Assembly (NCBI RefSeq): GCF_004118265.1
Contig: NZ_SDHW01000003.1
Span: 372,001 to 436,000, forward strand
DNA length: 64,000 nucleotides
From: Lacibacter luteus
GTDB lineage: Bacteria > Bacteroidota > Bacteroidia > Chitinophagales > Chitinophagaceae
Reading direction: 5' to 3'
Position numbers and translations under genes: made by a program. A model generated the notes under the pieces. It was given only the letters and a program-made list of their open reading frames with translations, was not told the origin of the DNA and searched no databases. This document shows, piece by piece, positions 7,862 through 30,690 of the stretch (the first letter of the stretch is position 1; every line of letters begins with the position of its first letter).

Positions 7862-10174
7862 ATGAACCGATTGCTTACTTGTACTGTACTGATCGTTGCA
7901 GCTATTGCAACATTGGTTTCCTGCTTTAATAACAGCGGGAACGAAGAGACATTACCCAAAAACGTCTCTTATAATTTTCACATCCGTCCCATTCTTTCCG
8001 ACAAATGTTTTAAATGTCATGGTCCCGATGCAAGTCATCGTGAAGCCGGTTTGCGTTTAGACATTGCCGATAGTGCTTATGCCCCTCTTCTTAATACAAA
8101 AGGAGCATTCGCCATTGTTCCCGGCAAACCCGAATTGTCGGAATTAATAAAACGCATTTCTTCTACAGATTCTACAATGGTGATGCCCACACCGGAATCG
8201 CATCTGGGAAGTTTATCTGAACATGAAATTGCTTTGTTTAAAAAATGGATCAAACAGGGAGCAAAGTATGAGGCACACTGGGCATTTACAATGCCGGTAA
8301 AAATTCCATTGCCTGAAGTAAAAGACAAAGAATGGGTAAAGAACGAGATCGATCGTTTCATATTGGCGAAACTTGAAGAAAAAGGATTAACGCCAAATGA
8401 AGAAGCCGATAAGGAACGCTTATTGAAGAGAGTAAGTTTTGATCTGACAGGTCTTCCTCCATCACTAGAAATGATGGATCGGTTTGTTGCAGATAAATCG
8501 GATGTTGCTTATGAAAAGATGGTGGATGCATTATTGCAATTGCCACAGTATGGCGAGAAGATAGCGGTGCACTGGATGGATGTTGCACGCTATGCAGATA
8601 GTTACGGCTACCAGGATGATAATATCCGCACACAATGGCCCTGGCGTGATTGGGTGATTCATGCATTCAATCAAAACATGCCTTACGATCAATTCGTTAC
8701 CTGGCAGGTGGCGGGTGATATGTTACCTGATGCAACAAAAGAAAATATTTTAGCCACAGGTTTTTTCCGCAATCATAAATACACCGAAGAAGGCGGTGTG
8801 ATTGAAGAAGAATACCGCATTGAATACCTCATTGATAAAACAAAAACATTCACCAAGGGTATTCTTGGAATAACCATTGAATGTGCACAATGCCACGATC
8901 ACAAGTATGATCCGTTTTCGCAGAAAGATTATTATTCACTGCTCGCATTTTTCAACAACACAAAAGAAAAAGGTTTTGAAGGCGATGTAGGAACATCACA
9001 ACCTGCAAAGAATCCTGTGTTGACTATTACTGCTGAAGACCGAAAACATTTGCTTTCCTATATCAATGCAAAAGATACCAATGCACTAACTGTTTCGGTG
9101 ATGGGCGAAAGAGATACGCTGCGTAAAACCTATTTGCTGAATCGTGGAGTGTACGATCAACCTGCGGATGAAGTGCAACCAACGGCCGTAAAAGCTGTGA
9201 TGAAGTTCGATACTGTAAAATTTCCACGCAACAGGATAGGACTTGCTAAATGGACGGTTGATAAAAAGAATCCGCTTACTGCAAGAGTGTTTGTAAACCA
9301 GGTGTGGCAGGAGTTCTTTGGAAAAGGATTGGTAAAAACATCAGGCGATTTTGGTATGCAGGGCGAACTGCCTTCGCATCCTGAATTACTTGATTGGCTT
9401 GCTGTTGATTTTATGGAGAACGGATGGAATGTAAAACGATTGGTAAAACAAATTGTAACCTCTGCCACTTACAGGCAATCAGGAAAAGTAAAAGACATTC
9501 ATTTGAAAAAAGATCCTGAGAATATTTACCTGGCAAGATCGCCACGCCAACGATTGAAAGCAGAATTTGTACGGGATATGTATTTAGCCAGCAGCGGTCT
9601 TTTAATAAAAACAATTGGCGGCGCCAGTGTGAAACCTTATCAACCGAAAGGAATTTGGGAAGCAGCATCTTCAGGTAGAGGTGTGCTTGCTACTTACAGA
9701 CAAGATCATAATGATGCATTGTACCGTCGTGGGCTGTATAATTTTATTAAACTTACTGTTCCTCCTCCAAGTATGATCATGTTCGATGCAAGCAACCGTG
9801 ATCAATGCGAAGTGAAACGGTTAAAAACAAATACGCCATTGCAGGCATTGATCATGATGAATGATCCTGCAGTGCTGGAAGCATCAAGAGTGCTTGCACA
9901 ACAACTGTTGAGCGAACGATCAACTGCTGATGAAAAGATCAGCAAGGCATTCCGATTGATCATCTGCCGGCAACCATCAGCAACAGAGAAAAAAATATTG
10001 AACGAATATTATACCGAACAGTTGCAATTGTTTCAGCAGAATAAATTGAATGCAGCAGTTACAATTAAAGTAGGAGAGTATCCAATTAACAAAGAACTGA
10101 ATCAGCAAGAAGTAGCAGCGTTAATGAAAACGATCAATACGGTTTATAATATGGAAGAAGCAATTGTAAAGTAA
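7862..10174 (+). CDS. PSCyt1-DUF1549-DUF1553 lipoprotein (planctomycete-type cytochrome)
   Basis: Exported lipoprotein of 770 residues. ATG 7862 gives a lipoprotein signal peptide with lipobox LVSC (Cys21); the earlier TTG at 7814 would bury it. A planctomycete-type cytochrome c domain carries haem motif C49-F-K-C-H53 followed by GPDASHREAGLRLD. DUF1549 follows (about 150-370), with a second CxxCH (ECAQCHDHKYDPF) and HWMDVARYADSYGY. DUF1553 occupies about 470-730 (RVFVNQVWQEFFGKGLVKT, TPLQALIMMNDP). These domains co-occur with DUF1501 proteins in Planctomycetes and some Bacteroidota; biochemical function is not established. First gene of a five-gene same-strand set ending in a strong terminator at 15862. 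Redox chemistry on an extracytoplasmic substrate is an inference from the haem motifs. Confidence 0.88.
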   Translation: MNRLLTCTVLIVAAIATLVSCFNNSGNEETLPKNVSYNFHIRPILSDKCFKCHGPDASHREAGLRLDIADSAYAPLLNTKGAFAIVPGKPELSELIKRISSTDSTMVMPTPESHLGSLSEHEIALFKKWIKQGAKYEAHWAFTMPVKIPLPEVKDKEWVKNEIDRFILAKLEEKGLTPNEEADKERLLKRVSFDLTGLPPSLEMMDRFVADKSDVAYEKMVDALLQLPQYGEKIAVHWMDVARYADSYGYQDDNIRTQWPWRDWVIHAFNQNMPYDQFVTWQVAGDMLPDATKENILATGFFRNHKYTEEGGVIEEEYRIEYLIDKTKTFTKGILGITIECAQCHDHKYDPFSQKDYYSLLAFFNNTKEKGFEGDVGTSQPAKNPVLTITAEDRKHLLSYINAKDTNALTVSVMGERDTLRKTYLLNRGVYDQPADEVQPTAVKAVMKFDTVKFPRNRIGLAKWTVDKKNPLTARVFVNQVWQEFFGKGLVKTSGDFGMQGELPSHPELLDWLAVDFMENGWNVKRLVKQIVTSATYRQSGKVKDIHLKKDPENIYLARSPRQRLKAEFVRDMYLASSGLLIKTIGGASVKPYQPKGIWEAASSGRGVLATYRQDHNDALYRRGLYNFIKLTVPPPSMIMFDASNRDQCEVKRLKTNTPLQALIMMNDPAVLEASRVLAQQLLSERSTADEKISKAFRLIICRQPSATEKKILNEYYTEQLQLFQQNKLNAAVTIKVGEYPINKELNQQEVAALMKTINTVYNMEEAIVK

Positions 10175-19304: not shown

Positions 19305-19375
19305 ATGAATGATGAGTGATCAGTGATGAGTTGTTGAGCAGTCACGCCACTCATTATTCATCACTCATTACTCAT
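19305..19375. repeat. Heptad palindromic repeat, hemE-hemF spacer
   Basis: Two 27-base arms (19305-19331 and 19349-19375) are imperfect inverted repeats, 22 of 27 positions matching, with several mismatches being G-U pairs. The 17-base loop starts TGTTGAGCAG and ends ACGCC. Each arm is built of degenerate heptamers such as ATGAGTG and ATGAATG. It supplies the hemE stop codon (19372-19374) and ends 3 bases before the hemF start. Nearly the same loop occurs at 20437-20453. Confidence 0.9.
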
Positions 19376-20403
19376 TTTTGATATTCCTTCACCGCCTCCA
19401 CAAATGCTTTTGCATGATCAACAGGTACATTGGGTGTAATGCCATGACCAAGGTTGGCAATGTATCGCTGTGTACCAAATGCATCGATCATTTCTTTTAC
19501 TGCTTTTTTAATTTCAGGAATTGGTGCCAGCAATTTCGCCGGATCAAAATTACCCTGAATGGTGATTTTGTTCTGCGTAAACTCTCTTGCCAATTGCGGC
19601 GTAATACACCAATCGATACCCACACCGCTGGCTGCACTTTCACTGATATCTTTCAACGCATGCCATGTTCCTTTCGGGAAAAGAATCACAGGCGCATCAT
19701 CTTTCAATGCTTCTGCTATCTGGAATAAATAAGGCTGAGCAAATGCTTTAAAATCGACCGGACTTAATGAACCTGCCCAGCTATCAAATACTTGTACCGT
19801 GTCTGCACCTGCTTTCACCTGGTTCTTTAAATAGACAATGGTAATGTCAGTGATCTTTTGCAGCAACTGGTGAGCAAGCAATGGTTGCGTGTAAGCAAAC
19901 TGTTTTGCTTTATCCCATGTTTTGCTGCCTTTACCTTCTACCATATAACAAAGAATGGTCCACGGCGCACCGGCAAAACCGATCAATGGTACACGACCAT
20001 TCAATTCTCTTTTTGTTAAACTCAATGCATCGTACACATACTTCAAACTTTCTTCTGCACCGGTTGTGATCAACGCATCAACATCTTTTTGCGATGCAAT
20101 TGTTTTTGGTAACGATGGCCCTTTGCCTTCTTCCATCAACACTTCCACACCCATTGCCTGTGGTATCACCAAAATATCGCTGAAGATAATAGCAGCATCC
20201 ACACCCACCTGGTCAACAGGTTGCAACGTAATTTCTGTTGCAAGCTCCGGTGTTTGACAACGGGTAAAGAAATCATATTTCTCCCGCAGCTTAATATAAT
20301 CGGGTAAATATCTTCCTGCCTGGCGCATCATCCATACCGGTGGGCGTTCTACAGTTTCTCCTCTGAGGGCTTTTAATAATAAATCGTTCTTAAGTTGAGT
20401 CAT
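19372..20403 (-). CDS. hemE: Uroporphyrinogen decarboxylase
   Basis: Decarboxylates the four acetates of uroporphyrinogen III to give coproporphyrinogen III; cytosolic. 343 residues, usual length. Blocks: [17 protein letters not shown] at the N-terminus, [41 protein letters not shown] and the C-terminal [14 protein letters not shown]. Its stop codon lies in the repeat on one side, and its start is 6 bases from a second copy of the same repeat. Confidence 0.97.
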
Positions 20404-20409
20404 AATAAA

Positions 20410-20480
20410 ATGAATGATGAGTAATTAGTGATGAGTTGTTGAGCAGCGACGCCACTCATTATTCATCACTCATAACTCAT
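20410..20480. repeat. Heptad palindromic repeat, hemD-hemE spacer
   Basis: Arms 20410-20436 and 20454-20480, 17-base loop TGTTGAGCAGCGACGCC, almost identical to the copy at 19305-19375. The right arm contains the hemD stop (20470-20472) and encodes the last residues NEL of HemD. Confidence 0.9.
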
Positions 20481-21177
20481 TAAAAAAATCCATCGCCTGC
20501 CTTACCAGTTCTTCTTTGCCCGGTGATTTGCCAATGATGATGGTGTTGTTACAATATTGTTGAACTGCTTTTGCTGTGGTTGTGCCAATGGCGAATACAA
20601 TTGTTTGGTCAGCGATTTTGTTGCTGCTGAAAAAACTTGTGACAGCACTTGGGCTGTAAAATAAAATGCCCTGGTATTGCTTGCTTACTTTGTGCGGCGT
20701 GTGGATGGTTTCGTACACCATGATCTCCTGCACATCAATTCCTTCTTTGCGAAGGATAGCAGGTAACTCATCTCTGCGTTGTTCGCCACAGAAGAAAATC
20801 ACTTCATCCACATCAGCTGCTTCAATTATTTTTTCGGCCAGCTCTGCTGCAGAACCTGCAGTTGCTGCAACACTATGTTCGCCAAAACTTTCCTGCAGCA
20901 GTTTTTTTGTTGTATTCCCCAAACAGTAAATAACCCAATCGGGAAGTTGACTGTCCTGTTGTGCCAGTACCGCTGTTACGGCATTCATACTTGTAAAGAC
21001 AACAGTGGCCGATTGCATGTATGCCTGTTCAATTTCCTGCTGCACTTCTACAGATTGAATAGGCTCTGTTTCTATAAACGAGAGTTCATCAATAGCAATG
21101 CCTTCTTCTTTCGCTTCGCTTACAAGCAAAGAAGTCAATGGCCTGGTTGATAATATGTGTATGTTATTTTCCTGCAT
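20470..21177 (-). CDS. hemD: Uroporphyrinogen-III synthase
   Basis: Cyclises hydroxymethylbilane to uroporphyrinogen III with inversion of ring D; cytosolic, two-lobed. 235 residues. Sequence conservation in this family is low, so the call leans on gene order as well as on the N-terminal ILSTRPL strand, the AVVFTSMNAV-like block TVVFTSMNAVTAV, the IMVYETIHTPH linker and GILFYSPSAVTSFF. The start overlaps hemC by 14 bases, implying coupled translation. The last codons and stop come from the adjacent repeat. Confidence 0.93.
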   Translation of the reverse strand: MQENNIHILSTRPLTSLLVSEAKEEGIAIDELSFIETEPIQSVEVQQEIEQAYMQSATVVFTSMNAVTAVLAQQDSQLPDWVIYCLGNTTKKLLQESFGEHSVAATAGSAAELAEKIIEAADVDEVIFFCGEQRRDELPAILRKEGIDVQEIMVYETIHTPHKVSKQYQGILFYSPSAVTSFFSSNKIADQTIVFAIGTTTAKAVQQYCNNTIIIGKSPGKEELVRQAMDFFNEL

Positions 21178-22129
21178 TCTTTATACTATCTGCAATGGCT
21201 TGTCCGCCGAGTGATAAAACTTCTTCTGCCGCTTCAAGTCCCAAATGCGCTGCATCGGGAATGGAAACAGTGTTTTCATATTCCACTTTTTCTTTTCCAT
21301 CAAGCGAAAAAATATTTCCACGGAAATGAATTTCCTCATCCAACACTTCTGCATAGGCACTGATGGGTGTTGAACAACCGCCTAACAAGGCACGTAAAAA
21401 CTCACGTTCAATTTTTGTACAAAACGCCGTATCGGCATCGTTAAACTCAACGCATGCTTCCAATGCATATGCATCCTCTTCTCTGCACACAACCATAACT
21501 GCACCTTGTGCAGGAGCAGGCAACATCCAATCAAGTTCAATAGAGTTTTCAGGACGAAGGTTGATGCGTTCCAAACCCGCAGCTGCAAAAATGGCCGCAT
21601 CCCATTTCTCTTCTTTCAACTTGCGTAAACGTGTGTTTACATTGCCACGCAGATTTTCAACAACAGAAGTTGGATAACGATGTAACCATTGGGCTTTTCT
21701 TCTGATACTGCTCGTTGCAACCGTGAGTGGAGAAGATTCGCTATTCACGATTGACCATTCACCATTCACAAAACCCAACTTATCACTCATTACTGACAAT
21801 TCATTTTTCAGTACCAACAGATCTTTCACCGGCCCACGTTTTAACACCGCTGCCTGTATAATACCTTTTGGTAATTGCGTAGGCACATCCTTCATAGAAT
21901 GTACCGCTATATCAATCTTGTTATTGAGTAATGCGCTGTCGAGGCTGCGGGTAAACACACCTTGCACACCCATCTCATATAATGGAGTACTCAGGTCAAT
22001 ATCGCCTTCGCTTTTAATATAAACGAGTTCAGTTTCGTAGCCGTATTGAAGTAATAAGTTTTTTACCTGTGTGGCCTGCCAAACTGCTAACTCGCTTTCC
22101 CTTGTGCCGATGCGGATAATTTTTCCCAT
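21164..22129 (-). CDS. hemC: Hydroxymethylbilane synthase (porphobilinogen deaminase)
   Basis: Polymerises four porphobilinogens into hydroxymethylbilane; cytosolic. 321 residues from the ATG at 22129 (MGKIIRIGTRESELAVWQAT); the longer frame adds 14 residues that overlap hemA. Blocks: HSMKDVPTQLP, TSSIRRKAQWLH, LRGNVNTRLRKL, and LLGGCSTPISAYAE with the dipyrromethane-attachment Cys. Odd feature: residues about 110-131 (LSVMSDKLGFVNGEWSIVNS) between LLVLKNE and the TSSIRRK block read as an in-frame heptad-repeat insertion; E. coli HemC has a shorter segment there. The gene starts 1 base after the hemA stop. Confidence 0.97.
   Translation of the reverse strand: MGKIIRIGTRESELAVWQATQVKNLLLQYGYETELVYIKSEGDIDLSTPLYEMGVQGVFTRSLDSALLNNKIDIAVHSMKDVPTQLPKGIIQAAVLKRGPVKDLLVLKNELSVMSDKLGFVNGEWSIVNSESSPLTVATSSIRRKAQWLHRYPTSVVENLRGNVNTRLRKLKEEKWDAAIFAAAGLERINLRPENSIELDWMLPAPAQGAVMVVCREEDAYALEACVEFNDADTAFCTKIEREFLRALLGGCSTPISAYAEVLDEEIHFRGNIFSLDGKEKVEYENTVSIPDAAHLGLEAAEEVLSLGGQAIADSIKNAGK
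21737..21805. repeat. Heptad repeat copy inside hemC
   Basis: Units such as ATTCACG, ATTGACC, ATTCACC, ATTCACA and, further on, ATCACTC and ATTACTG match the heptads of the spacer repeats. They lie in frame within hemC and encode about 22 residues upstream of the conserved TSSIRRK block. Confidence 0.7.
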
Positions 22130-22130
22130 T

Positions 22131-23369
22131 TTATTCTGTGCCGGTAGCAATAAACTCATTGATGGCTTCAATGTAATAACAGCCTCGCTGGTTTTGCTCT
22201 TTCATTTTTGAAGCCATGCAATTAATTACCTTCTGAATTTTTTCATCGGTATTTTTTGTGCAGGCTGTATGATGCGGTTGCAAAGTTATATATAATGGGG
22301 AAGTATGAATTTCTTTGAGCTTTGTTTTTACGGCTTTCAGCACCGGCACATGCTTGCGCATCTGGTACCAATCCATAAATTCAGCTGTATGTTCTTCAAT
22401 GATGGCTTTTGCTTTGGGCACTTCTGCTTCACGCTTGGCAAGTGTCTCATCTTTCAGCTTCGATAACTGATCTACATTTACCAGCGTTACATTTTCCAAT
22501 GCAGCAGCCGCAGCTTCAACATTGTTGGGTATTGATAAGTCGATAACCAGTTTCTGCTGTTTGCTTTTTAATTGTGCAGCAAGAATAGTTGGCTCGGGTG
22601 AGTTTGTTGCTACTAAAATAATATCTGCTTCCGCCACTTGCACGCTCAGCTCTTCAATTGGTGCAGATTGTAAACCCAACTCATCTGCCAATACGGTTGC
22701 CTTTTCTTCGGTACGGTTGATGAGCGTAATATTATTTGTACCGAGATAGTCAACTAAATTTTTACAGGTGTTGCGCCCAAACTTACCTGTGCCAAGCAAT
22801 ACGATCTTTTTATTGCGGATATGCTTTACATGTTCACGAATAAACTGAACAGCAGCAAATGAAACCGATACCGTGCCATCACTCAGCCTTGTATTGTTCT
22901 TAATGGCTTTGGATGATTGCAGCATGCAGTTCACCAAACGTTCTGTAAATGCATGAATACGCTGGTGTTGTTTGGCGGTTTTTGCAGCTTGCTTTATCTG
23001 GCCTACAATTTCATAGTCACCCAGGATCTGCGAATCCAATCCGCCACCCACATGCAACAAATGATCGATTGCTTCTATTCCTTTTTTTACATAAGCTCTT
23101 TCACGAAACTCTTTGCTGCAACCTTCGGTCTGGCTGCAAAGCAACTCTTCCAATTGTGCCAACTGATCTGCAAAACCATAAATTTCGGTGCGGTTGCAGG
23201 TAGAAACCACAAAGGCTTCCTGCACACCAAATTCAGGGGCCTGGTTCAGTAAGGTTGCATATTGTTCGGGAGAAAGGGCAAAACGGCCACGCATTTCTGC
23301 ATCGGTTTTGCGGTAGTTGATACCCGCTATAAAAAATTTCGATATGTCTTTTGTGCCGTTTTTGTGCAT
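22131..23369 (-). CDS. hemA: Glutamyl-tRNA reductase
   Basis: NADPH-dependent reduction of glutamyl-tRNA to glutamate-1-semialdehyde, first and usually rate-limiting step of the C5 haem pathway. 412 residues from the ATG at 23369. Blocks: FIAGINYRKTDAEMRGRFAL, VVSTCNRTEIYGF with the catalytic Cys, GGLDSQILGDYEIVGQIK, and the NADPH site IVLLGTGKFGRNT. The C-terminal dimerisation region is present. First gene of the minus-strand operon hemA-C-D-E-F-B-L, with a good -7 box 27 bases upstream. Confidence 0.97.
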   Translation of the reverse strand: MHKNGTKDISKFFIAGINYRKTDAEMRGRFALSPEQYATLLNQAPEFGVQEAFVVSTCNRTEIYGFADQLAQLEELLCSQTEGCSKEFRERAYVKKGIEAIDHLLHVGGGLDSQILGDYEIVGQIKQAAKTAKQHQRIHAFTERLVNCMLQSSKAIKNNTRLSDGTVSVSFAAVQFIREHVKHIRNKKIVLLGTGKFGRNTCKNLVDYLGTNNITLINRTEEKATVLADELGLQSAPIEELSVQVAEADIILVATNSPEPTILAAQLKSKQQKLVIDLSIPNNVEAAAAALENVTLVNVDQLSKLKDETLAKREAEVPKAKAIIEEHTAEFMDWYQMRKHVPVLKAVKTKLKEIHTSPLYITLQPHHTACTKNTDEKIQKVINCMASKMKEQNQRGCYYIEAINEFIATGTE

Positions 23370-23395
23370 GGTGATTGTACCAAAAATCCTAAGCG

Positions 23396-23422
23396 CAAAA
23401 GTAACCTCGGGCATCGCATCAA
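23396..23422 (-). promoter_or_regulatory. Promoter of the hemA operon
   Basis: On the minus strand TACTTTTG (23403-23396) matches TAnnTTTG; a TTG at 23422-23420 may be the -33 element with 16-base spacing. It lies just upstream of hemA. Confidence 0.55.
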
Positions 23423-23590
23423 CCTAAAAATTCTGTCATTGCTTTGTCAAAAGAAAAAGTGATTTTAATCAGTTGAACGAGTGTTCATTATCACTGAAAA
23501 TGCTTATGAAAAAATGCATCAATTCATTGCCCGAAACAGTCATTTCATACAAGTTTTATTGCAGAATGAACTTTTGTTTTGTATTGCGGT

Positions 23591-23598
23591 TACTTTTG
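23591..23598 (+). promoter_or_regulatory. -7 box of hemH
   Basis: TACTTTTG fits TAnnTTTG and lies 19 bases before the hemH ATG. A TTTG at 23573-23576 upstream is too close (14 bases) for a standard -33 element. With the hemA promoter it forms a divergent hem control region of about 250 bases. Confidence 0.45.
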
Positions 23599-23617
23599 CA
23601 AACGATTAAAAACAGAT

Positions 23618-24676
23618 ATGGAGCAAACAGCAAAAAAAGGGATCCTGTTGATGAATCTTGGTTCGCCCGATTCCACAGAAGTAAAAGATGTTCGCCGTTA
23701 TTTAAATGAATTTTTAATGGACGAACGGGTAATTGATATGCCTTACCTGAAACGACTTCTGTTGGTAAAAGGGCTCATTACTCCTTTTCGTGCACCCAAA
23801 TCGGCAGAGGCTTACCGTACCATCTGGACAAAAGAGGGCTCTCCGCTCATCGTTCTTACCCAGCAATTACAAGAAGCGTTGCAGCAGCAGGTAGATGTAC
23901 CGGTTGAAATTGCCATGCGTTATGGCAACCCGACAGTACAGCATGGTTTTGATGCATTGATGAAAAAAGTACCCGGACTGGAAGAAGTGATTGCTGTGCC
24001 TTTGTATCCGCATTATGCTATGAGCAGCTACGAAACTGCAGTTGAGTATGCAAAGGAAATTCATCAGAAACAGGAATATCCGTTTAAACTGGAGTTCATT
24101 AAACCTTATTACAATGAACCGAATTATATTGAAGCATTGGCTGAAAATATAAAACCATATCTCCAACAGGAGTACGATCATATCCTGTTCAGTTATCATG
24201 GTATTCCTGAACGTCATTTAGTTAAAACTGACCCCACAGGTTCTCATTGTATGATGAACGGAAATTGTTGCAGTACTTCATCGGCTGCTCATGCAACCTG
24301 TTATCGTCATCAATGTTTTACCACAACCAATCTTGTTACAGATAAATTGGGTATTACAAAAGATAAATTCAGTGTGTCGTTTCAATCGAGACTGGGCAGA
24401 GATCCCTGGCTGAAACCTTATACCGATTTCCGATTGACGGATATGCCCAAAGAAGGAATTAAAAAACTGTTAATCCTTTGTCCGGCGTTTGTAAGTGATT
24501 GTTTGGAAACGTTGGAAGAAATTGAAGAGCGTGGCAAGGAAACATTTATGGAAGCAGGTGGTGAAACGTATAAGATGATCCCTTGTTTAAATACGCATCC
24601 TTTATGGGTGAAGACGATTGCTGATTGGACAAAAGCAATTGTAGCTGGGAATAAGGAGATGGTGCTGGTGAAATGA
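23618..24676 (+). CDS. hemH: Ferrochelatase
   Basis: Inserts iron into the porphyrin macrocycle. 352 residues from ATG 23618 (MEQTAKKGILLMNLGSPDS); the earlier ATG at 23579 precedes the likely -7 box. Blocks: RRYLNEFLMDERVIDMP, YPHYAMSSYETAV, the active-site SYHGIPERHLVKTDPTG, FQSRLGRDPWLKPYTD and CPAFVSDCLETLEEI. A Cys-rich insert (HCMMNGNCCSTSS then ATCYRHQC, about residues 208-230) follows the active-site His; I recall similar inserts in other Bacteroidota, and some ferrochelatases carry [2Fe-2S] clusters, but a cluster here is not shown. Divergent from the hemA operon. Its TGA is the first part of a heptad repeat. Confidence 0.96.
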   Translation: MEQTAKKGILLMNLGSPDSTEVKDVRRYLNEFLMDERVIDMPYLKRLLLVKGLITPFRAPKSAEAYRTIWTKEGSPLIVLTQQLQEALQQQVDVPVEIAMRYGNPTVQHGFDALMKKVPGLEEVIAVPLYPHYAMSSYETAVEYAKEIHQKQEYPFKLEFIKPYYNEPNYIEALAENIKPYLQQEYDHILFSYHGIPERHLVKTDPTGSHCMMNGNCCSTSSAAHATCYRHQCFTTTNLVTDKLGITKDKFSVSFQSRLGRDPWLKPYTDFRLTDMPKEGIKKLLILCPAFVSDCLETLEEIEERGKETFMEAGGETYKMIPCLNTHPLWVKTIADWTKAIVAGNKEMVLVK

Positions 24677-24706
24677 GTGATGAGTAATGAATGATCAGTG
24701 GTTGCC
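24673..24706. repeat. Left inverted arm flanking the four-helix-bundle gene
   Basis: Heptads ATGAGTG, ATGAGTA, ATGAATG, ATCAGTG then GTTGCC. It matches the reverse complement of 25157-25190 at 26 of 34 positions and contains the hemH stop. The remaining 98 bases before the next gene show no other clear feature. Confidence 0.85.
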
Positions 24707-24804
24707 TTCTGGCACTCCCGTCTGACGATAGCTTAGGGGGAAATGAAGGTTTGACAAACGAAAAGTGTTTTTTATTTTGAAGTAAACTTATAAAACACTG
24801 TTCT

Positions 24805-25161
24805 ATGTTTCTTCAACTTGCTCACACCAAAACCGATCTGTTTGCAACATCAAAATCATTTGCACTTGAATGTTATAAGGTAACCAGGTCTTTTCCTCCG
24901 GATGAGCGATTCGCCATGACACAGCAGATCCGCAGGGCAGCACTTTCAGTTCATTTAAATATAGCAGAAGGTTGCTCAAGAAAGTCGATAGCCGAGCGAA
25001 AACGATTTTTTGAAATAGCAAGAGGTTCGGTCATTGAAATTGATACGGCTTTTGATATGGCCGTTAATCTTGAATATACCTCACCTGATAAACTCATTGT
25101 TTTAGGACAGTATTTAGTAAGTACATTTAAACAACTATCAGCAATTATCAATCATGAGTAA
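24805..25161 (+). CDS. Four-helix-bundle protein (23S rRNA IVP/bAvd-like)
   Basis: 118-residue protein of the S23/TIGR02436 four-helix-bundle family, related to proteins encoded in 23S rRNA intervening sequences and to Avd of diversity-generating retroelements. Signature: FPPDERFAMTQQIRRAALSV, then HLNIAEGCSRKSIAERKRFF and EIARGSVIEIDTAFDMAV. Length is typical. Relatives are basic, nucleic-acid-binding pentamers in DGRs; outside those settings the role is unknown. No reverse transcriptase or template repeat is nearby. The gene is wedged between hemH and hemJ and is bracketed by inverted heptad repeats; the right one supplies its TAA. Confidence 0.9.
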   Translation: MFLQLAHTKTDLFATSKSFALECYKVTRSFPPDERFAMTQQIRRAALSVHLNIAEGCSRKSIAERKRFFEIARGSVIEIDTAFDMAVNLEYTSPDKLIVLGQYLVSTFKQLSAIINHE

Positions 25162-25190
25162 CCACTCATTACTGATCACTCATTACTCAT
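25157..25190. repeat. Right inverted arm flanking the four-helix-bundle gene
   Basis: Reverse-oriented heptads (ACTCATT, ACTGATC, ACTCATT, ACTCAT) mirror 24673-24706. It provides the TAA of the upstream gene and ends 3 bases before the hemJ ATG. Confidence 0.85.
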
Positions 25191-25193
25191 ACC

Positions 25194-25736
25194 ATGTATC
25201 TCTATATTAAAGCTCTCCATATCATCTTCATCGTTACCTGGTTTGCGGGTTTGTTTTACATGCCCCGATTGTTTATTTATAATGTAGAGGCAAACGCAAA
25301 GGACGAAAACAGCCGCAAGGTTTTGCAGGAACAGTTTGGCATTATGATGAAGCGTTTGTGGTACGGTATTACCTGGCCATCGGCTGTATTAACGTTGATT
25401 TTTGGTGTTTGGGTTTTATTCGAAAGTGGGTACTCAAAAATTGTATTTGAACCTGCCGGAAGATGGATGCTTATCAAACTCATCTTTGTTGTACTCTTAT
25501 ACTTCTATCATTTCTCCCTGCATAAAATATTAAAGCAACAAACAGCAGGTATTTTTAAGTATTCATCACAACAACTCCGCATCTGGAACGAAGTGGCAAC
25601 TATTTTTCTTGTTGCTGTTGTAATGCTGGTGGTGGTAAAACAAAACCTCAGTGCACTGTGGGGTGTGCTTGGGTTGTTATTATTTGTTGTGTTGTTAATG
25701 AGTGCGATTAAGATTTATAAACTTCTGCGAAAATAA
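25194..25736 (+). CDS. hemJ: Protoporphyrinogen IX oxidase, HemJ type
   Basis: Integral membrane protein of the UPF0093/HemJ family that oxidises protoporphyrinogen IX to protoporphyrin IX, the step before ferrochelatase. 180 residues with four to five helices. The N-terminus has the family His and Arg in ALHIIFIVTWFAGLFYMPRL; helix two carries WPSAVLTLIFGVWVL, followed by GRWMLIKLIFVVLLYFYHF with the conserved Lys. No hemG or hemY is seen, so this is the only candidate for the step here. It is in the same direction as hemH and was probably its direct neighbour before the four-helix-bundle gene and repeats came between them. Confidence 0.93.
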   Translation: MYLYIKALHIIFIVTWFAGLFYMPRLFIYNVEANAKDENSRKVLQEQFGIMMKRLWYGITWPSAVLTLIFGVWVLFESGYSKIVFEPAGRWMLIKLIFVVLLYFYHFSLHKILKQQTAGIFKYSSQQLRIWNEVATIFLVAVVMLVVVKQNLSALWGVLGLLLFVVLLMSAIKIYKLLRK

Positions 25737-25785
25737 ACTACTGTTCATCTGCAGGAAATAGTTTTCATCGTTTCATTTCTGCCCT

Positions 25786-25793
25786 TACCTTTA
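25786..25793 (+). promoter_or_regulatory. -7 box of the TPP riboswitch transcript
   Basis: TACCTTTA differs from TAnnTTTG at the last base only. It would place the transcript start within a few bases of the riboswitch's 5' end, which supports it. Confidence 0.45.
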
Positions 25794-25798
25794 CATCG

Positions 25799-25877
25799 TC
25801 ATTGCACGGGGTGCTTCATAGGAAGCTGAGATTATACCCGTCACCTGATTTGGATAATGCCAACGGAGGGATGCAGA
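25799..25877 (+). promoter_or_regulatory. TPP riboswitch (THI element)
   Basis: All conserved blocks of the thiamine-pyrophosphate aptamer are present in order: GGGGTGC (25808-25814), GCTGAGATTATACCC (25825-25839), CACCTGATTTGGATAATGCC (25842-25861) and AACGGAGGGATGC (25862-25874). A short P1 pairs TTGCA with TGCA(G). It senses TPP and shuts off the genes downstream. Confidence 0.97.
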
Positions 25878-25895
25878 CGGATAAATTTATTCTTG

Positions 25896-25932
25896 TCCAT
25901 TTTCGTTTGGTATTAACGGAAATGGATTTTTT
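25896..25932 (+). terminator. Riboswitch terminator
   Basis: 12-bp stem TCCATTTTCGTT (25896-25907) with AACGGAAATGGA (25915-25926), one G-U pair, followed by six T residues. It lies 19 bases after the TPP aptamer, so premature termination is the likely output when TPP is bound. Confidence 0.9.
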
Positions 25933-25979
25933 ATTTCTGTTAATACCTGCGGCTTCTCCAAGGTGATTTCTTATCAGGT

Positions 25980-26034
25980 ATGCCATATTTCATAATGACT
26001 GATGTTATTTATCAGCATGCAATAAATATGGCAT
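25980..26034 (+). promoter_or_regulatory. Second palindrome over the methyltransferase start region
   Basis: ATGCCATATTT (25980-25990) pairs exactly with AAATATGGCAT (26024-26034); an inner CTGAT/ATCAG stem lies within. Two in-frame ATG codons (25980, 26028) fall in the arms. It could control translation or be a protein site; no T tract follows. Confidence 0.5.
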
Positions 26035-26051
26035 ACCTAAAACAGTTCAAC

Positions 26052-26780
26052 ATGCAAGTAGAAAAAAGAGAAGCCGGATTAATTCCGCAACATTACCGTA
26101 ACTGGCAGGGAAGACCGGAATGGTTCTTCAATCGGGAACATACCGATACGTATGAGCAGTGGTATGAAGGTCGTTACAAACGTGCCGAAGTGTGGCAGAA
26201 GAAAGTAATGGAACAACTCGTATCGAAAGATAAACGGGTGAAAACATTGCTGGAGTTTGGCTGCGGTACCACACGCTTTACCCGTTGGTGGAAAGAGATC
26301 GGCATTGAAGCAACAGGTGGCGATCTGTCGCCATTAATGCTGGGCCAGGCCATTCATTTATTTGATGGCGATCTAGTGTTGGCCGATTCGCATCACATGC
26401 CGTTTAAAGATCACAGCTTCGATACATTGGCATTCATCACCACATTTGAATATTACAAAGATCCGGTTAAAGTAATTCGTGAAGCAGCAAGAGTAGCGAA
26501 ACATGGCATTGCAATGGGCATGATGAACCGAAACTCAACAAAAGTGGTACGCCGGAGAGTGCAGGAATTATTTGGTGCCAACCCGTTTTATCTCACTGCA
26601 ACATTTTATTCACCAGCTAAACTCACTGCTATTATTGATGAAGCGTTGAAAGGAAGAAACTACAGCATTGAATGGACCTGCACCGGTTTGCCGAAATGGT
26701 TTCCTGTTCAGCAATGGAGTTTACCATTGGGCGATTTCTTTGGACTCTACATTAAACTGGAAGATGAGCAACATTTATAA
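26052..26780 (+). CDS. SAM-dependent methyltransferase under TPP riboswitch
   Basis: Class I methyltransferase fold, 242 residues from ATG 26052; in-frame ATGs at 25980 and 26028 are possible but lie in a palindrome. Motif I is TLLEFGCGTTRFTRWW (about residues 61-76), motif II is TGGDLSPLMLGQA, motif III-like is VLADSHHMPFKDHSFDTLAF, and EAARVAKHGIAMGMMN follows as in Methyltransf_11 proteins. The small-molecule substrate cannot be read. The frame overlaps the next gene by 17 bases, so the four genes 26052-28733 form one tight operon behind a TPP riboswitch. That ties it to thiamine metabolism, although no standard thiamine step uses such an enzyme. Product unknown. Confidence 0.85.
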   Translation: MQVEKREAGLIPQHYRNWQGRPEWFFNREHTDTYEQWYEGRYKRAEVWQKKVMEQLVSKDKRVKTLLEFGCGTTRFTRWWKEIGIEATGGDLSPLMLGQAIHLFDGDLVLADSHHMPFKDHSFDTLAFITTFEYYKDPVKVIREAARVAKHGIAMGMMNRNSTKVVRRRVQELFGANPFYLTATFYSPAKLTAIIDEALKGRNYSIEWTCTGLPKWFPVQQWSLPLGDFFGLYIKLEDEQHL

Positions 26781-27831
26781 CAGGCAACCCGGTAAACTTA
26801 ATCATCATTCCTTTGAAGAAATGATTCTGCAACGATGTGGTGCTGAACGAAACGAAGTAAGCACCGGTGCTGCATTTGGTGTAGATGTTTCGGTGATCGA
26901 TCTGCCGAATGGATTGGCAATGGCGATGACGAGTGATCCATTGTCGTTAATACCATCGTTGGGTTTGCAGGAATCAGCATGGCTATCGGTTCATCTCATG
27001 GCGAATGATATGGCTACAACTGGTTTTGCGCCCATGTATGCACAGTTTGTACTAAATCTTCCTGCACAATTTTCAACAGCAGATTTTCAAACTTACTGGA
27101 ACCATATTCATCAATACTGCAAAGAAATTGGTATTGCCATCACCGGTGGACATACTGGATTTATTGAAGGTCAAAATTCAACCATTGCAGGAGGAGGAAC
27201 TTTTACAACTGTTGCTGCAAAAGAACAGATCCTTACTTCGGCAAAGGCAAACGAAGGCGATGTTATTCTTGTAACCAAACAGGCCGCATTAACAGCTACT
27301 TCTATTCTTGCCATGAGCTTTCCTGAAACAGTGAAGAACAACGCAGGAAAAGATGTGTATGAAAAATCCTGTGAACTTTTTTGGCAAACATCTTCTTTAA
27401 TCGATGCATTAACTGCAGCCGGTATAGAAACAAAGTTTACAGAAGTAACTGCTATGCACGATGTAACAGAAGGCGGCGTATTAGGAGCGGTGTATGAATT
27501 AGCTGTTGCATCGAACAAAGGCGTGCGTTTGTACAATGATTCAATTCCCATTGGAGAAGTGCAGCAAAATGTTTGTGCATTGTTTGGAATTGACCCTCGT
27601 TATGTAGTCGGCGCAGGAGCCATGATCATCACTGTAAAAAAAGGAGCAGAACAAAATGTGATCGATCGATTGAAAAAGAAAAACATTGCATGCACAGTGA
27701 TAGGTGAAATAACTGCGAAAGATAAAGGGAAGAAGATCGTAGTAGATGATAAAGAAGAAGAGCTTATCTACCTCGAGCGTGATCCCTACTGGCATGCATT
27801 TTTTAACGCCTATAAAAAAGGATGGAAGTAA
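26764..27831 (+). CDS. AIR synthase/HypE-like ATP-binding protein
   Basis: 355 residues of the PurM/HypE/SelD/ThiL superfamily, enzymes that phosphorylate or activate a substrate with ATP. From ATG 26764 (MSNIYNRQPGKLNHHSF). Family blocks: FGVDVSVIDLPNGLAMAMTS, MANDMATTGFAPMYAQF, AITGGHTGF and the HypE-like AMHDVTEGGVLGAVYELA. The last block resembles HypE/SelD more than thiamine-monophosphate kinase ThiL, so this is not a plain ThiL, and no hydrogenase genes are nearby. It overlaps the methyltransferase and abuts the ThiE-like gene, so it probably acts on the same thiamine-related intermediate. Exact reaction unknown. Confidence 0.85.
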   Translation: MSNIYNRQPGKLNHHSFEEMILQRCGAERNEVSTGAAFGVDVSVIDLPNGLAMAMTSDPLSLIPSLGLQESAWLSVHLMANDMATTGFAPMYAQFVLNLPAQFSTADFQTYWNHIHQYCKEIGIAITGGHTGFIEGQNSTIAGGGTFTTVAAKEQILTSAKANEGDVILVTKQAALTATSILAMSFPETVKNNAGKDVYEKSCELFWQTSSLIDALTAAGIETKFTEVTAMHDVTEGGVLGAVYELAVASNKGVRLYNDSIPIGEVQQNVCALFGIDPRYVVGAGAMIITVKKGAEQNVIDRLKKKNIACTVIGEITAKDKGKKIVVDDKEEELIYLERDPYWHAFFNAYKKGWK

Positions 27832-28458
27832 ATGGAAACGAAAATTAATAACGGAGTTTACCTTGTTGTTGATCCTTCAATAGAACAGCAACAATTGTTT
27901 GAACATTTGGCAGCAGCGCTGGAGCAAGGTATTGCTGCAGTACAGTTGTGGGATCATTTTCCAAATGAAAACGCTAAGCAGGAAATTATTCCGGTTGTAT
28001 GTGCCATGTGCAAAGCGTCAGCAGTCCCGGTGCTCATCAACAACGATTGGCAACTGCTGAAAATGTATCCTTTGGATGGTGTGCATTTTGATGCGTTGCC
28101 GGAAAAGCTCACGTCGATAAAAAATGAGATCGGAAGAAATTTTCTTGTTGGTGTAACGGTTAACAACGATCTGTCTGTAGTTGAGCAGGCCGAAGCAAAC
28201 AAGCTCGATTATATTTCTTTCTGTTCCATCTTTCCATCATCAACCAGTAACAGTTGCGAACTGGTATCGTTCGATACGATCCGAAAAGCAAGAGCCATCA
28301 CAGCGATGCCGATATTTTTGGCAGGGGGCATTCGCTTAGATAACATCAGCAAACTTTCAGAGCTTGATTACAATGGTGTAGCCATTGTTTCGGGTATCAT
28401 GAAAGCCGATGATCCTGCTGCAGTAACAAAACAATACAATCAACTTTTAAAAAAATAA
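27832..28458 (+). CDS. Divergent ThiE/TenI-family protein
   Basis: 208-residue TIM-barrel protein of the thiamine-phosphate synthase family, starting directly after the previous stop. Recognisable: YLVVDPS, GIAAVQLWDH (residues 33-42), VLINNDWQLL, DGVHFDALPE, DYISFCSIFPSSTS, FLAGGIRLDNI and GVAIVSGIM. Canonical ThiE has QxREK where this has QLWDH, GVHLGQ where this has GVHFDA, and a Lys in the FPTxTK loop where this has STSN. The pyrophosphate-binding Arg and Lys therefore appear missing. It may be a TenI-like or repurposed paralogue rather than a working thiamine-phosphate synthase. Family membership is firm; activity is doubtful. Confidence 0.85.
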   Translation: METKINNGVYLVVDPSIEQQQLFEHLAAALEQGIAAVQLWDHFPNENAKQEIIPVVCAMCKASAVPVLINNDWQLLKMYPLDGVHFDALPEKLTSIKNEIGRNFLVGVTVNNDLSVVEQAEANKLDYISFCSIFPSSTSNSCELVSFDTIRKARAITAMPIFLAGGIRLDNISKLSELDYNGVAIVSGIMKADDPAAVTKQYNQLLKK

Positions 28459-28460
28459 CG

Positions 28461-28733
28461 ATGCGTTTAAGTACAATTGATAAATTATGCTGCCCTTTTG
28501 ATAAGGCTGACCTGCAATTACAGGTTATTGCAAAAGATCTCGAAGAAAATATTATTGAAGGCATCCTCACTTGTAAAACCTGTCAGCGGTATTATCCTAT
28601 TGTAAAAGGAGTACCAATTATGAGTCCTGATGAATACCGTGAGGTAAAACTGGAGCAACCTATGCTGGAAAACTGGCAGCAGCATTTGCAGGGCAAACAG
28701 GCAGATCAGTTCCGGCTTTTAGCTGATGAATAG
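28461..28733 (+). CDS. Trm112-family small zinc-ribbon-like protein
   Basis: 90 residues, two bases after the ThiE-like stop. Trm112/UPF0434-type: LCCPFDKADL at the N-terminus, then ILTCKTCQRYYPIVKGVPIM. The second CxxC is intact; the first is reduced to a Cys-Cys pair, so zinc binding may be incomplete. In eukaryotes and archaea Trm112 is an obligate partner of several methyltransferases. Here a methyltransferase lies two genes upstream in the same riboswitch-controlled operon, which makes a partnership plausible but unproven. Confidence 0.8.
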   Translation: MRLSTIDKLCCPFDKADLQLQVIAKDLEENIIEGILTCKTCQRYYPIVKGVPIMSPDEYREVKLEQPMLENWQQHLQGKQADQFRLLADE

Positions 28734-28823
28734 CCGGTAAAAGATTAGTTTTTTGTTGAGCGAAAGAAATTATTAGTTTTAGCGTCAAACAACTGCTATC
28801 TGGCAAAACCAAACCAAAAACGA

Positions 28824-29186
28824 ATGAAAAAAACAATTCTTCTGTCGTCTATCTGTTTATCATTTGTGCTGATCATCTTTTCCTGTTCACGCAAATCGGC
28901 TGCAACATCTTCAGTAAGTAAAAAAGTATCTGCGTCAGCAGCCATGTACGAGTCGAGTGTAAAGCCATTGATCGCTCTGCGTTGCTCTCCCTGTCATATG
29001 CCAGCTGAGGGTGGAAAGAAAAAACCATTGGACAGCTACGACAGTGTAAAAGTGCTTGCGGCGGATATGCTTCATCGTGTTGAATTAAATCCGGGTGAAA
29101 GAGGTTTTATGCCTTTCAAAAAGCCAAAGCTTACATCAGAAGAAATTGCTGTATTTAAGAAGTGGGCTGAAGAAGCAGCAAAATAA
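28824..29186 (+). CDS. Small c-type cytochrome lipoprotein
   Basis: 120 residues. A lipoprotein signal peptide ends LIIFSC (Cys21), followed by a Ser/Ala/Lys-rich linker. A single haem-binding motif C54-S-P-C-H58 sits in PLIALRCSPCHMPAEGGKKK; the C-terminal half has GFMPFKKPKLTSEEIAVFKK, as in DUF1588/planctomycete-type small cytochromes. MPF could hold the axial Met. Monocistronic: 90 bases after the Trm112-like gene and followed by a terminator. Probably a periplasm-facing electron carrier; partner unknown. Confidence 0.82.
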   Translation: MKKTILLSSICLSFVLIIFSCSRKSAATSSVSKKVSASAAMYESSVKPLIALRCSPCHMPAEGGKKKPLDSYDSVKVLAADMLHRVELNPGERGFMPFKKPKLTSEEIAVFKKWAEEAAK

Positions 29187-29204
29187 ACTGCTGATATAAT
29201 TTTT

Positions 29205-29250
29205 CGCCGCAGCTTTCCCGACGAACATCATGAAAGTTGCGGCGATTTTT
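29205..29250 (+). terminator. Terminator after cytochrome gene
   Basis: 13-bp stem CGCCGCAGCTTTC (29205-29217) with GAAAGTTGCGGCG (29232-29244), one G-U pair, followed by ATTTTTATTT. Confidence 0.88.
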
Positions 29251-29325
29251 ATTTCGTTAATCCCGACTTGCGATCAATCCAGAGTAATAGCCGAAATACT
29301 TCCGGGCTTCTACTCATTACTCTTA

Positions 29326-30690
29326 TTAAATTGCCTTGCTGAACATTGGCTGCACTGCATCCCGTTGCAGGTAAAGATCAAATGCGCTACAGATATTGCG
29401 TATAAACTGGCGACCCTTTTCCGTTACAACCAATCCATCATCATTCAAGTAAATCAAACCATCATCAAGCGGTTGCTGCAGCTGTGGCAATACATATTTT
29501 TGAATCAGTCGTTGATCATCTCTGCGAAAAACGGCATAACCTCTGCAACTGATGCTGAGAATATATTTGCGGAACGATTTATCTTCTTCGCTTAGAAAAT
29601 AACCTTTAAAAATGGGCAACTCTTTTCGCTCAATGCATTCGTAATACTCATGCAATGATTTTTTGTTCTGTCCAAACGCAACTCCAATGTCACTGATGCT
29701 TGAAACACCCAGCCCTAACAGCATCGAAGTATGTTGTGTGGTATAACCCATAAAATTGCGATGCAGTTTTGCAGTTTCCCATGCAAGAAAAAGTTCATCA
29801 TTCTGTAAGGCAAAATGATCCATACCAATATCGCTATAACCGGAAGCTGTAAGCAATTCTTTTCCCTTAAGATATAACTGCAGTTTTTCTTCGGGTGATG
29901 GTAAATCATTCTCATCAAACAAACGCTGCCCTCTGCTCGTCCACGGTACATGCGCATAGCTGTAAAATGCAATACGATCGGGCCGTAATTCAATCACTTC
30001 ATTGATCGTTTTTGTAATACTTGCCAGGGTTTGTTTCGGCAAACCATAGATGAGATCATAATTCACCGAAACAAAGCCAATGGCCCGTGCTTCTTCGGTT
30101 GCACGTTTTACATTTTCAAGGGGTTGAATGCGGTTGATAATGCGTTGCACTTCGGCATCGTTATCCTGCACACCATAACTGATGCGGCGAAAACCGAGAT
30201 CATACAATGTTGCTAAATGTTCTTTTGTGGTATTGTTGGGATGTCCTTCAATACTAAACTCGTAATCGGGATGAAGTACAGAACGATCCTTAATAAAATT
30301 GATGAGTCGTTTAAGATTTGCCGGCGAAAAGAATGTTGGTGTACCTCCGCCAAGATGCAGTTCCCGGATGATCGGTTTTTCGTGAAGAATGGAAAGATAG
30401 AGTTTGAATTCTTTTTCAATCATGCCCAGGTATTCTTCTTCCACACTGTGATTGGTTGTAATTTTTTTGTTACAGCCGCAATAGGTACACAGCGATTCGC
30501 AAAAGGGCAGATGAATATATAAACTGATTCCTTCTTTGTGATTGTGCAGCTCAAATTGCTGTTGCAACAGGTAAATGTATTGTTGCTGATTGATGCCTTC
30601 GGCCCATACAGGAACGGTTGGATAGCTTGTATAGCGAGGTACGGGTTTGTTGTACCGGCGTACCAGTTGTTGAAATACTTCGGGTTGCAT
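29326..30690 (-). CDS. hemN: Oxygen-independent coproporphyrinogen III oxidase
   Basis: Radical-SAM enzyme for anaerobic conversion of coproporphyrinogen III to protoporphyrinogen IX; cytosolic. 454 residues, normal for HemN. N-terminal RYTSYPTVPVW, the radical-SAM cluster motif CESLCTYCGC (CxxxCxxC, with the extra Cys of true HemN), HLGGGTPTFFSPANL, and GVQDNDAEVQRIINRIQP. It stands apart from the main hem cluster, between a cytochrome gene and ileS, divergent from ileS. With hemF at 18336, both forms of the step are present. No FNR-type site was recognised upstream. Confidence 0.96.
   Translation of the reverse strand: MQPEVFQQLVRRYNKPVPRYTSYPTVPVWAEGINQQQYIYLLQQQFELHNHKEGISLYIHLPFCESLCTYCGCNKKITTNHSVEEEYLGMIEKEFKLYLSILHEKPIIRELHLGGGTPTFFSPANLKRLINFIKDRSVLHPDYEFSIEGHPNNTTKEHLATLYDLGFRRISYGVQDNDAEVQRIINRIQPLENVKRATEEARAIGFVSVNYDLIYGLPKQTLASITKTINEVIELRPDRIAFYSYAHVPWTSRGQRLFDENDLPSPEEKLQLYLKGKELLTASGYSDIGMDHFALQNDELFLAWETAKLHRNFMGYTTQHTSMLLGLGVSSISDIGVAFGQNKKSLHEYYECIERKELPIFKGYFLSEEDKSFRKYILSISCRGYAVFRRDDQRLIQKYVLPQLQQPLDDGLIYLNDDGLVVTEKGRQFIRNICSAFDLYLQRDAVQPMFSKAI

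Follow-up and report, generated by a model that had tools for sequence, protein, structure and literature searches.

A 64-kb stretch of the Lacibacter luteus genome (hereafter the window, meaning the whole of the DNA analysed) carries a compact cassette at 25797-28733, in which a thiamine pyrophosphate (TPP) riboswitch aptamer and a terminator-like stem are followed by four genes on the + strand (Table 1). These encode a methyltransferase dependent on S-adenosylmethionine (SAM), a presumed ATP enzyme related to HypE and the aminoimidazole ribonucleotide (AIR) synthase superfamily, a ThiE-like protein with an altered active site and a Trm112-domain protein. We found that this four-gene set is conserved behind a TPP switch in many Bacteroidota, where it probably recovers vitamin B1 from a related compound. 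The Rfam score, the stem and the gene calls all support the initial annotation, which placed a canonical TPP aptamer and terminator ahead of four genes. Its description of junctions of at most two bases is right for genes 2 and 3 (0 bases) and genes 3 and 4 (2 bases) but not for genes 1 and 2, which overlap by 17 bases if ATG 26764 is presumed to be the start of the HypE-like gene. The methyltransferase start at 26052 was picked by the starts of its relatives, and further in-frame ATGs lie upstream. All four proteins are over cut-off in Pfam (Methyltransf_11, AIRS with AIRS_C, TMP-TENI and Trm112p), and none of them reaches a model cut-off among the NCBIfam matches listed.

Table 1. Features of the cassette and its leader (positions in the 64-kb window).
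Feature	Position	Strand	Details
Possible -7 promoter element, TACCTTTA	25786-25793	+	Differs from TANNTTTG at one position; lies just before the aptamer
TPP riboswitch aptamer (RF00059)	25797-25888	+	68.3 bits (gathering score 54.3), E 2.6e-11
Intrinsic terminator-like stem, likely expression platform	25895-25927	+	13 pairs, then TTTTTT
Alternative hairpin	25909-25947	+	Arms 25909-25923 (GGTATTAACGGAAAT) and 25933-25947 (ATTTCTGTTAATACC)
Second, perfect 15-bp inverted repeat	25976-26038	+	Between the terminator and the methyltransferase gene
Methyltransferase (class I, SAM-dependent)	26052-26780	+	PF08241, 63.7 bits
HypE-like protein (HypE/AIR-synthase superfamily, presumed ATP enzyme)	26764-27831	+	PF00586 and PF02769 over cut-off
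ThiE-like protein (ThiE/TenI-fold TIM barrel, altered active site)	27832-28458	+	PF02581, 114.8 bits
Trm112-domain protein	28461-28733	+	PF03966, 30.8 bits (cut-off 22)

The arrangement is not peculiar to this strain. Among 248 genomes of the window's taxonomic order, 28 matched the HypE-like protein, and nine of these, the window's own genome included, hold clear orthologues (E ≤5.5e-103; the eight relatives are 51-67% identical). The remaining 19 matches were weak (E ≥5.3e-17, 24-33% identity) and were set aside as other AIRS proteins. The three listed genomes of the same genus gave no HypE-like match. All eight relatives have the identical four-gene order. An alignment scan of named genomes with the methyltransferase extended the comparison, and 78 of 80 loci keep the order in full, these being the best 80 of 235 relatives rather than a random sample; the remaining two (L111 and L116) are cut by contig ends. 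Because the order recurs in both sets, a chance origin of the arrangement is excluded. Those of the named loci that have a row in the tree are labelled Bacteroidota and fall in the Cyclobacteriaceae, Flavobacteriaceae, Weeksellaceae, Sphingobacteriaceae, Chitinophagaceae and others, and the methyltransferase is present at E ≤1e-60 in 14 of 392 genomes sampled across the phylum (this sample and that of the order were both drawn by program, and each includes the L. luteus genome). We found no fifth conserved gene, in that no further family occurs in more than nine of the 89 loci compared. Two Arenibacter species hold two cassette copies each (L049 and L053; L050 and L058), and in Arenibacter F26102 the two copies lie ~32 kb apart on one contig.

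The leader of the operon is conserved along with its genes. The aptamer is the sole match to RF00059 at gathering score in the window, and Rfam also recovers it at that score in six of the eight loci from the same taxonomic order. From nine aptamers, seven belonging to this operon and two being the other TPP matches of the L. luteus genome, we built a covariance model and ran it on 95 loci, comprising the two order-level loci missed by Rfam, the 80 named loci and 13 from the phylum sample. It placed an aptamer upstream of the methyltransferase gene in 93 of them; with this model none was found at that position in L046 and L047, which belong to one genus. By Rfam and the covariance model together, 100 of 102 loci thus have an aptamer ahead of their first gene, a total in which at least one genome is counted twice (L087 and L150 are the same contig place) and to which L150-L162 contribute methyltransferase and aptamer only. 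Five such sites, of which the terminator stem is one, occur in the scanned 3.7 kb; shuffled sequences give 3.5 ± 1.9, and the position and conservation of the stem therefore outweigh the scan itself. In 23 of 30 hand-chosen relatives a run of at least five T lies between the last 30 nt of the aptamer and the gene start, and in many of the same 30 a CTCCAT...ATGGAG stem, judged by eye, precedes the T run. The alternative hairpin overlaps the terminator stem and would exclude it, which makes an antiterminator role possible. The spacing from aptamer to first gene is 163 nt in the window, compared with 49-77 nt in 26 of the 30 relatives, and the second inverted repeat, which falls within this longer leader, may be a further control hairpin or an inserted palindrome.

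The placement of promoter motifs is in keeping with control through the aptamer. The 60 nt in front of the aptamer contain an exact TANNTTTG, which we take to be the Bacteroidota -7 promoter consensus, in 18 of 31 hand-chosen loci, as opposed to 110 of 3100 random windows, and in none of the 31 does the motif lie between the aptamer and the first gene. This distribution argues against an unregulated promoter 3′ of the terminator, which would have separated the genes from the switch. The L. luteus window is not itself among the 18 loci with an exact match and has the near match TACCTTTA only. Both terminator and promoter placement would thus fit control of the four genes by TPP: at low TPP the terminator would not form and all four genes would be made, whereas at high TPP transcription would stop. 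At L113 a second, inverted aptamer-like match (39.6 bits; 9819-9910, - strand) lies downstream of the operon without a gene to serve, and is perhaps a remnant.

The ThiE-like protein is modelled with confidence as a triosephosphate isomerase (TIM) barrel (predicted local distance difference test score, pLDDT, 93.2). Its fold is closest to solved ThiE, THI6 and TenI, and above all to B. subtilis ThiE (2tps; template modelling (TM) score 0.85 by query length). Against TIGR00693, the model for thiamine monophosphate (TMP) synthase, it scores only 113.2 bits (cut-off 145.1). In the B. subtilis enzyme R59, K61 and K159 bind the pyrophosphate of hydroxymethylpyrimidine pyrophosphate (HMP-PP), and the K159 counterpart was placed by alignment to the K159A entry 3o16. 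Across 87 ThiE-like sequences the R59 counterpart is always Trp; that of K61 is Asn in 60, His in 26 and Cys in one; and that of K159 is Ala in 56, Ser in 23, Val in four, Thr in two, Asp in one and Asn in one. Arg or Lys is therefore found at these three positions in none of the 87, and the canonical QLRxK becomes Q-x-W-D/N-N/H (with the single Cys at the last place). It is because of this loss that we do not class the protein as a TMP synthase. Six residues (W40, H85, D87, T109, C131 and C142) are by contrast invariant and, according to the secondary-structure string of the model rather than its coordinates, they are placed at the ends of strands or close to them, or in the loop that follows C131. 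TIM-barrel active sites sit at just such strand ends and loops. The GGI and SG motifs, which presumably hold the thiazole phosphate in ThiE, are retained as well (in the latter, Ser in 85 and Gly in 84 of the 87). The protein thus resembles ThiE in its barrel, in these motifs and in having a TPP riboswitch in front, and differs from it in its sub-cut-off score, its stripped pyrophosphate site and its own invariant Trp, His, Asp, Thr and two Cys. TenI, a thiazole tautomerase, offers a precedent for the ThiE fold without the HMP-PP reaction, but it ranks only 18th in the structural comparison with 14% identity, and proteins read as TenI adjoin ThiC in related genomes. Judged from their residues, the cassette proteins look active but altered.

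These features bear directly on two other explanations. The first is that the operon holds a divergent but conventional ThiE together with a kinase, and that the other two genes are generic ones carried along. This would be enough to account for the PF02581 match over cut-off, but the canonical residues are lost, the order is fixed in 78 of 80 loci and none of the other three proteins is as conserved as the methyltransferase, all of which make the explanation scarcely credible. According to the second, the ThiE-like protein is an alternative TMP synthase, joining pyrimidine and thiazole phosphate by way of a non-pyrophosphate leaving group that the HypE-like protein or the methyltransferase would install, and the operon is a complete coupling route for HMP- and thiazole-type precursors. 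The preserved fold and GGI/SG motifs are as such an enzyme would require, ThiL is present to use thiamine monophosphate (ThMP), and in all nine order-level carriers this is the only ThiE-family protein over cut-off. On the other hand, the counterparts of R59, K61 and K159 are never basic in the sense of Arg or Lys, despite the 26 sequences with His at K61, and a second coupling enzyme would be redundant in the five carriers that have both ThiC and canonical ThiE. On balance we judge an alternative synthase decidedly unlikely.

The HypE-like protein shares two AIRS domains and conserved acidic motifs with HypE, SelD and ThiL, and nine residues presumed to form its ATP/Mg site are invariant in 88 of 88 sequences. 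A GGH motif in this protein is also present in the genome's own SelD. It is nevertheless far below the cut-offs of all three families: hypE TIGR02124, its best NCBIfam match, gives 92 bits (cut-off 251.6), ThiL TIGR01379 77.5 bits (cut-off 184.15) and SelD TIGR00476 52.9 bits (cut-off 125), and a ThiL is present separately. All nine members of the HypE-like alignment A2 match TIGR02124 at E ≤1e-10 (best E 3.5e-26). The C-terminal cysteine motif that HypE carries was not seen in that alignment. The HypE-like proteins of two Sphingobacteriaceae loci (L103 and L124) have very long branches and retain the presumed ATP-site residues. In the plasmid collection the best relatives belong to the archaeal genus Haloarcula (28-30% identity), and on all three of these plasmids (L171, L173 and L174) the AIR synthase gene is divergent to genes for thiamine-binding and thiamine ATP-binding cassette (ABC) transporter substrate-binding proteins. 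The gene katG lies on its other side in all three.

The methyltransferase is the most constrained member of the set, since its mean pairwise identity is 81% (89 sequences), as against 58% for the HypE-like (88), 45% for the ThiE-like (87) and 58% for the Trm112-like protein (87). Its structure model is poor (pLDDT 56.5). Its solved relatives include a probable 18S ribosomal RNA (rRNA) (guanine-N7)-methyltransferase (E 6e-6), presumably of the Trm112-dependent Bud23 type. The Trm112-domain protein conserves C10, C11, C38 and C41 and scores 64.2 bits against NF038101, under the cut-off of 77. Like known Trm112-methyltransferase pairs, the two occur in fixed linkage, the methyltransferase being of class I; unlike them, the cassette protein has an extra conserved C-terminal tail and is below the archaeal equivalog cut-off. 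Their gene linkage makes the Trm112-domain protein a likely partner, which would probably stabilise the methyltransferase in a complex. Alternatively, the pair might modify RNA or protein, as eukaryotic and archaeal Trm112 partners do, with the riboswitch coupling this activity to thiamine starvation and the other two genes acting as sensor or supply. The Pfam Trm112 domain over cut-off and the rRNA methyltransferase among the relatives are what such a role would predict, yet the best Pfam match of the methyltransferase is Methyltransf_11 (PF08241), and its fixed linkage to ThiE-like and HypE-like genes points to metabolism. We therefore consider a role in RNA or protein modification very unlikely.

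Three TPP-aptamer matches occur in the L. luteus genome, and one of the three scores below gathering. Besides that of the cassette, one precedes a gene read as a TonB-dependent receptor and another a gene read as a PnuC-family transporter, which is followed by an acyl-CoA-dehydrogenase-like gene. At L006 (1612-3346), a PnuC-family-like gene lies behind a 46.5-bit, sub-gathering aptamer and is followed by an overlapping acyl-CoA-dehydrogenase-like frame, whose presence in a thiamine regulon would be unusual (names from reading the sequence). Separate proteins in the L. luteus genome were read as ThiL, SelD, PurM and PurL, with ThiL confirmed over cut-off, and the same genome gave no match to ThiC, to any other ThiE-family protein or to the thiamine pyrophosphokinase (TPK) domain (PF04263). 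ThiL was found in all 51 genomes searched for it (22 carriers and 29 non-carriers), and the suggestion that the operon replaces thiL is thereby refuted. Replacement of thiE, which had also been proposed, is doubtful: the cassette provides the sole over-cut-off ThiE-family protein in the nine order-level carriers, but that protein is without the pyrophosphate-site Arg and Lys. Nor does TPK show a pattern of replacement, despite its absence from the L. luteus matches, as the domain is present in 11 of 27 carriers (nine of the 11 in one family) and in only one of 29 non-carriers; we rejected this possibility too.

Carriers are mostly without ThiC. It was found in none of nine order-level carriers versus three of 20 order-level non-carriers, in none of the 14 phylum-sample carriers versus 130 of the 392 genomes in the whole phylum sample, and in five of 49 named carriers, hand-picked for diversity from the 80 named loci and searched for ThiC and ThiE. 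The 130 ThiC-positive genomes are concentrated in a few families. We do not claim that cassette and ThiC exclude one another, since lineage explains much of the pattern and the five named carriers have both. These five also hold a ThiE of canonical strength besides the cassette protein; among the other 44, three have a further ThiE-family match over cut-off (G620, G640 and, weakly, G621), and that in G640 may be a second copy.

Taken together, we favour a model in which the cassette is a self-contained, TPP-repressed unit, mobile between lineages, that salvages or rebuilds a thiamine-related compound which the standard enzymes do not use. We would put the probability of this reading at about 45%. 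The HypE-like enzyme would use ATP to phosphorylate or otherwise activate a carbonyl, amide or alcohol of the substrate, and the methyltransferase, probably stabilised by the Trm112-like protein, would methylate one intermediate. The ThiE-like barrel, having kept GGI/SG and lost the HMP-PP pyrophosphate site, would act on a phosphorylated intermediate through a new active site made up of W40, H85, D87, T109, C131 and C142. ThiL of the host would then convert the product, either ThMP or a direct precursor, to TPP. What the sequences show is the aptamer with its terminator-like element, the set of genes in its order and its conservation, one near-identical unit in two families, the missing canonical ThiE residues and the presence of ThiL; the substrate, the sequence of reactions, the chemistry assigned to each enzyme, the control by TPP and the methyltransferase-Trm112 complex are all inferred here. 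The initial annotation had proposed a TPP-repressed pathway that salvages, modifies or detoxifies a thiamine-related compound, and the conserved set behind an aptamer, unlike the TPP operons described in PMC5613172, bears this proposal out in part. Detoxification fits poorly with repression by TPP.

Several observations weigh against the salvage model. No transporter travels with the cassette, and we know of no thiamine step that uses such a methyltransferase. The shortage of ThiC is confounded by lineage, as nine of the 14 phylum-sample carriers belong to one family (f44) without a listed ThiC-positive genome. Furthermore, 17 of the 20 order-level non-carriers are without ThiC and 28 of 29 non-carriers without TPK, so that relatives get by in much the same situation while lacking the cassette. 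The base composition of the operon (42% G+C, compared with 41% for the window) gives no sign of recent arrival. Finally, four other HypE-like relatives that we inspected have no adjoining thiamine genes. In two Haloferax plasmids (L175 and L176; two of four records inspected) a more distant AIR synthase gene adjoins those for cobyrinic acid a,c-diamide synthase and an adenosyltransferase, in Halobacterium (one of 13 records inspected) the relative lies near other genes, and in Acaryochloris (one place) it adjoins psbU. The thiamine link therefore extends no further than the closest relatives from the plasmid collection.

The end product might also be something other than thiamine, namely a thiamine-derived or thiamine-sparing compound, such as a signal, an alternative cofactor or an antivitamin (for example a methylated analogue), whose production would be linked to low TPP. 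In thiamine supply a methyltransferase is an uncommon component, the distribution of the cassette is scattered, and known bacimethrin clusters hold a methyltransferase with thiamine-type genes, some of them with ThiD2 (PMC12345177). The thymidylate synthase, ThiD2 and ABC transporter found in such clusters are not fixed neighbours of our cassette, where no extra gene occurs in more than nine of 89 loci. We regard a product of this kind as unlikely. A bolder version of the salvage model would be that bacteria mostly without ThiC regain thiamine from a vitamer outside the known pathways, by a route that combines AIR-synthase-type ATP activation, Trm112-assisted SAM methylation and a remodelled ThiE barrel in which the pair of invariant cysteines would serve to transfer the pyrimidine or thiazole moiety covalently, and that travels between families as a complete riboswitch-plus-pathway cassette. 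We hold this scheme to be doubtful.

The sharp borders of the cassette are consistent with a unit that changes its neighbours. A single 2.9-kb block of riboswitch and operon is common to Ferruginibacter paludis (Chitinophagaceae) and Pedobacter chinensis (Sphingobacteriaceae) at 86.9% nucleotide identity, and nothing else aligned at E 1e-5 in their 14.7-kb loci. Among 36 hand-chosen loci, a few of them from one genus, 622 of 629 aligned pairs have no aligned base beyond the unit and its margins, set at 300 bases on the upstream and 60 on the downstream side. The seven exceptions include an Arenibacter pair, a pair from one genus of the window's taxonomic order (G203 and G191), and the pairing of the window with CW01 (L072), a metagenome-assembled genome of the Chitinophagaceae; in this last case the surrounding stretch of haem genes is largely common and in the same order, so the position of the cassette there is inherited. 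By themselves the borders show a unit with changing neighbours rather than transfer, because genera seldom share gene order. In a HypE-like tree made by a quick method, families are mixed, with five Chitinophagaceae rows needing five changes, which equals the value for shuffled labels. A plasmid or viral element as carrier was considered and is not supported: no relative of the methyltransferase was found in plasmids at E 1e-20, and none was confirmed in viral contigs.

TPP-regulated operons have been described in Bacteroides. A comparative study lists thiSEGCHF-tenI, an outer-membrane transporter (OMthi) and pnuT-tnr3, and reports that in some gut Bacteroidetes the thiazole branch is replaced by a THI4-like enzyme (PMC5613172). 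The cassette resembles those operons in having a TPP riboswitch in front, by which it would likewise be regulated, and differs in holding none of their genes apart from an altered member of the thiE family (PMC5613172). Among the matches listed from the open-licence literature, titles and opening abstracts contain no description of the riboswitch with this four-gene set, as a thiamine pathway or otherwise. Microbial communities are shaped by the exchange of vitamin B1, and auxotrophy is generally judged from annotated genomes. In the order-level carriers the cassette protein could be misread as evidence of thiamine synthesis, because the sole ThiE-family protein over cut-off lacks the residues of a TMP synthase. 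If the salvage route is correct, these Bacteroidota would use an unrecognised thiamine-related compound, and vitamin metabolism would involve a bacterial methyltransferase of the Trm112 type. Given the riboswitch and clean borders, the role of the cassette is directly testable.

In the window the cassette is embedded in a haem-biosynthesis neighbourhood (19372-30690), with genes read as hemE, hemD, hemC, hemA and hemH. HemJ is the best NCBIfam match, below the model cut-off, for the gene at 25194-25736, and a HemN-like gene on the minus strand (29326-30690) forms the other end of the neighbourhood.

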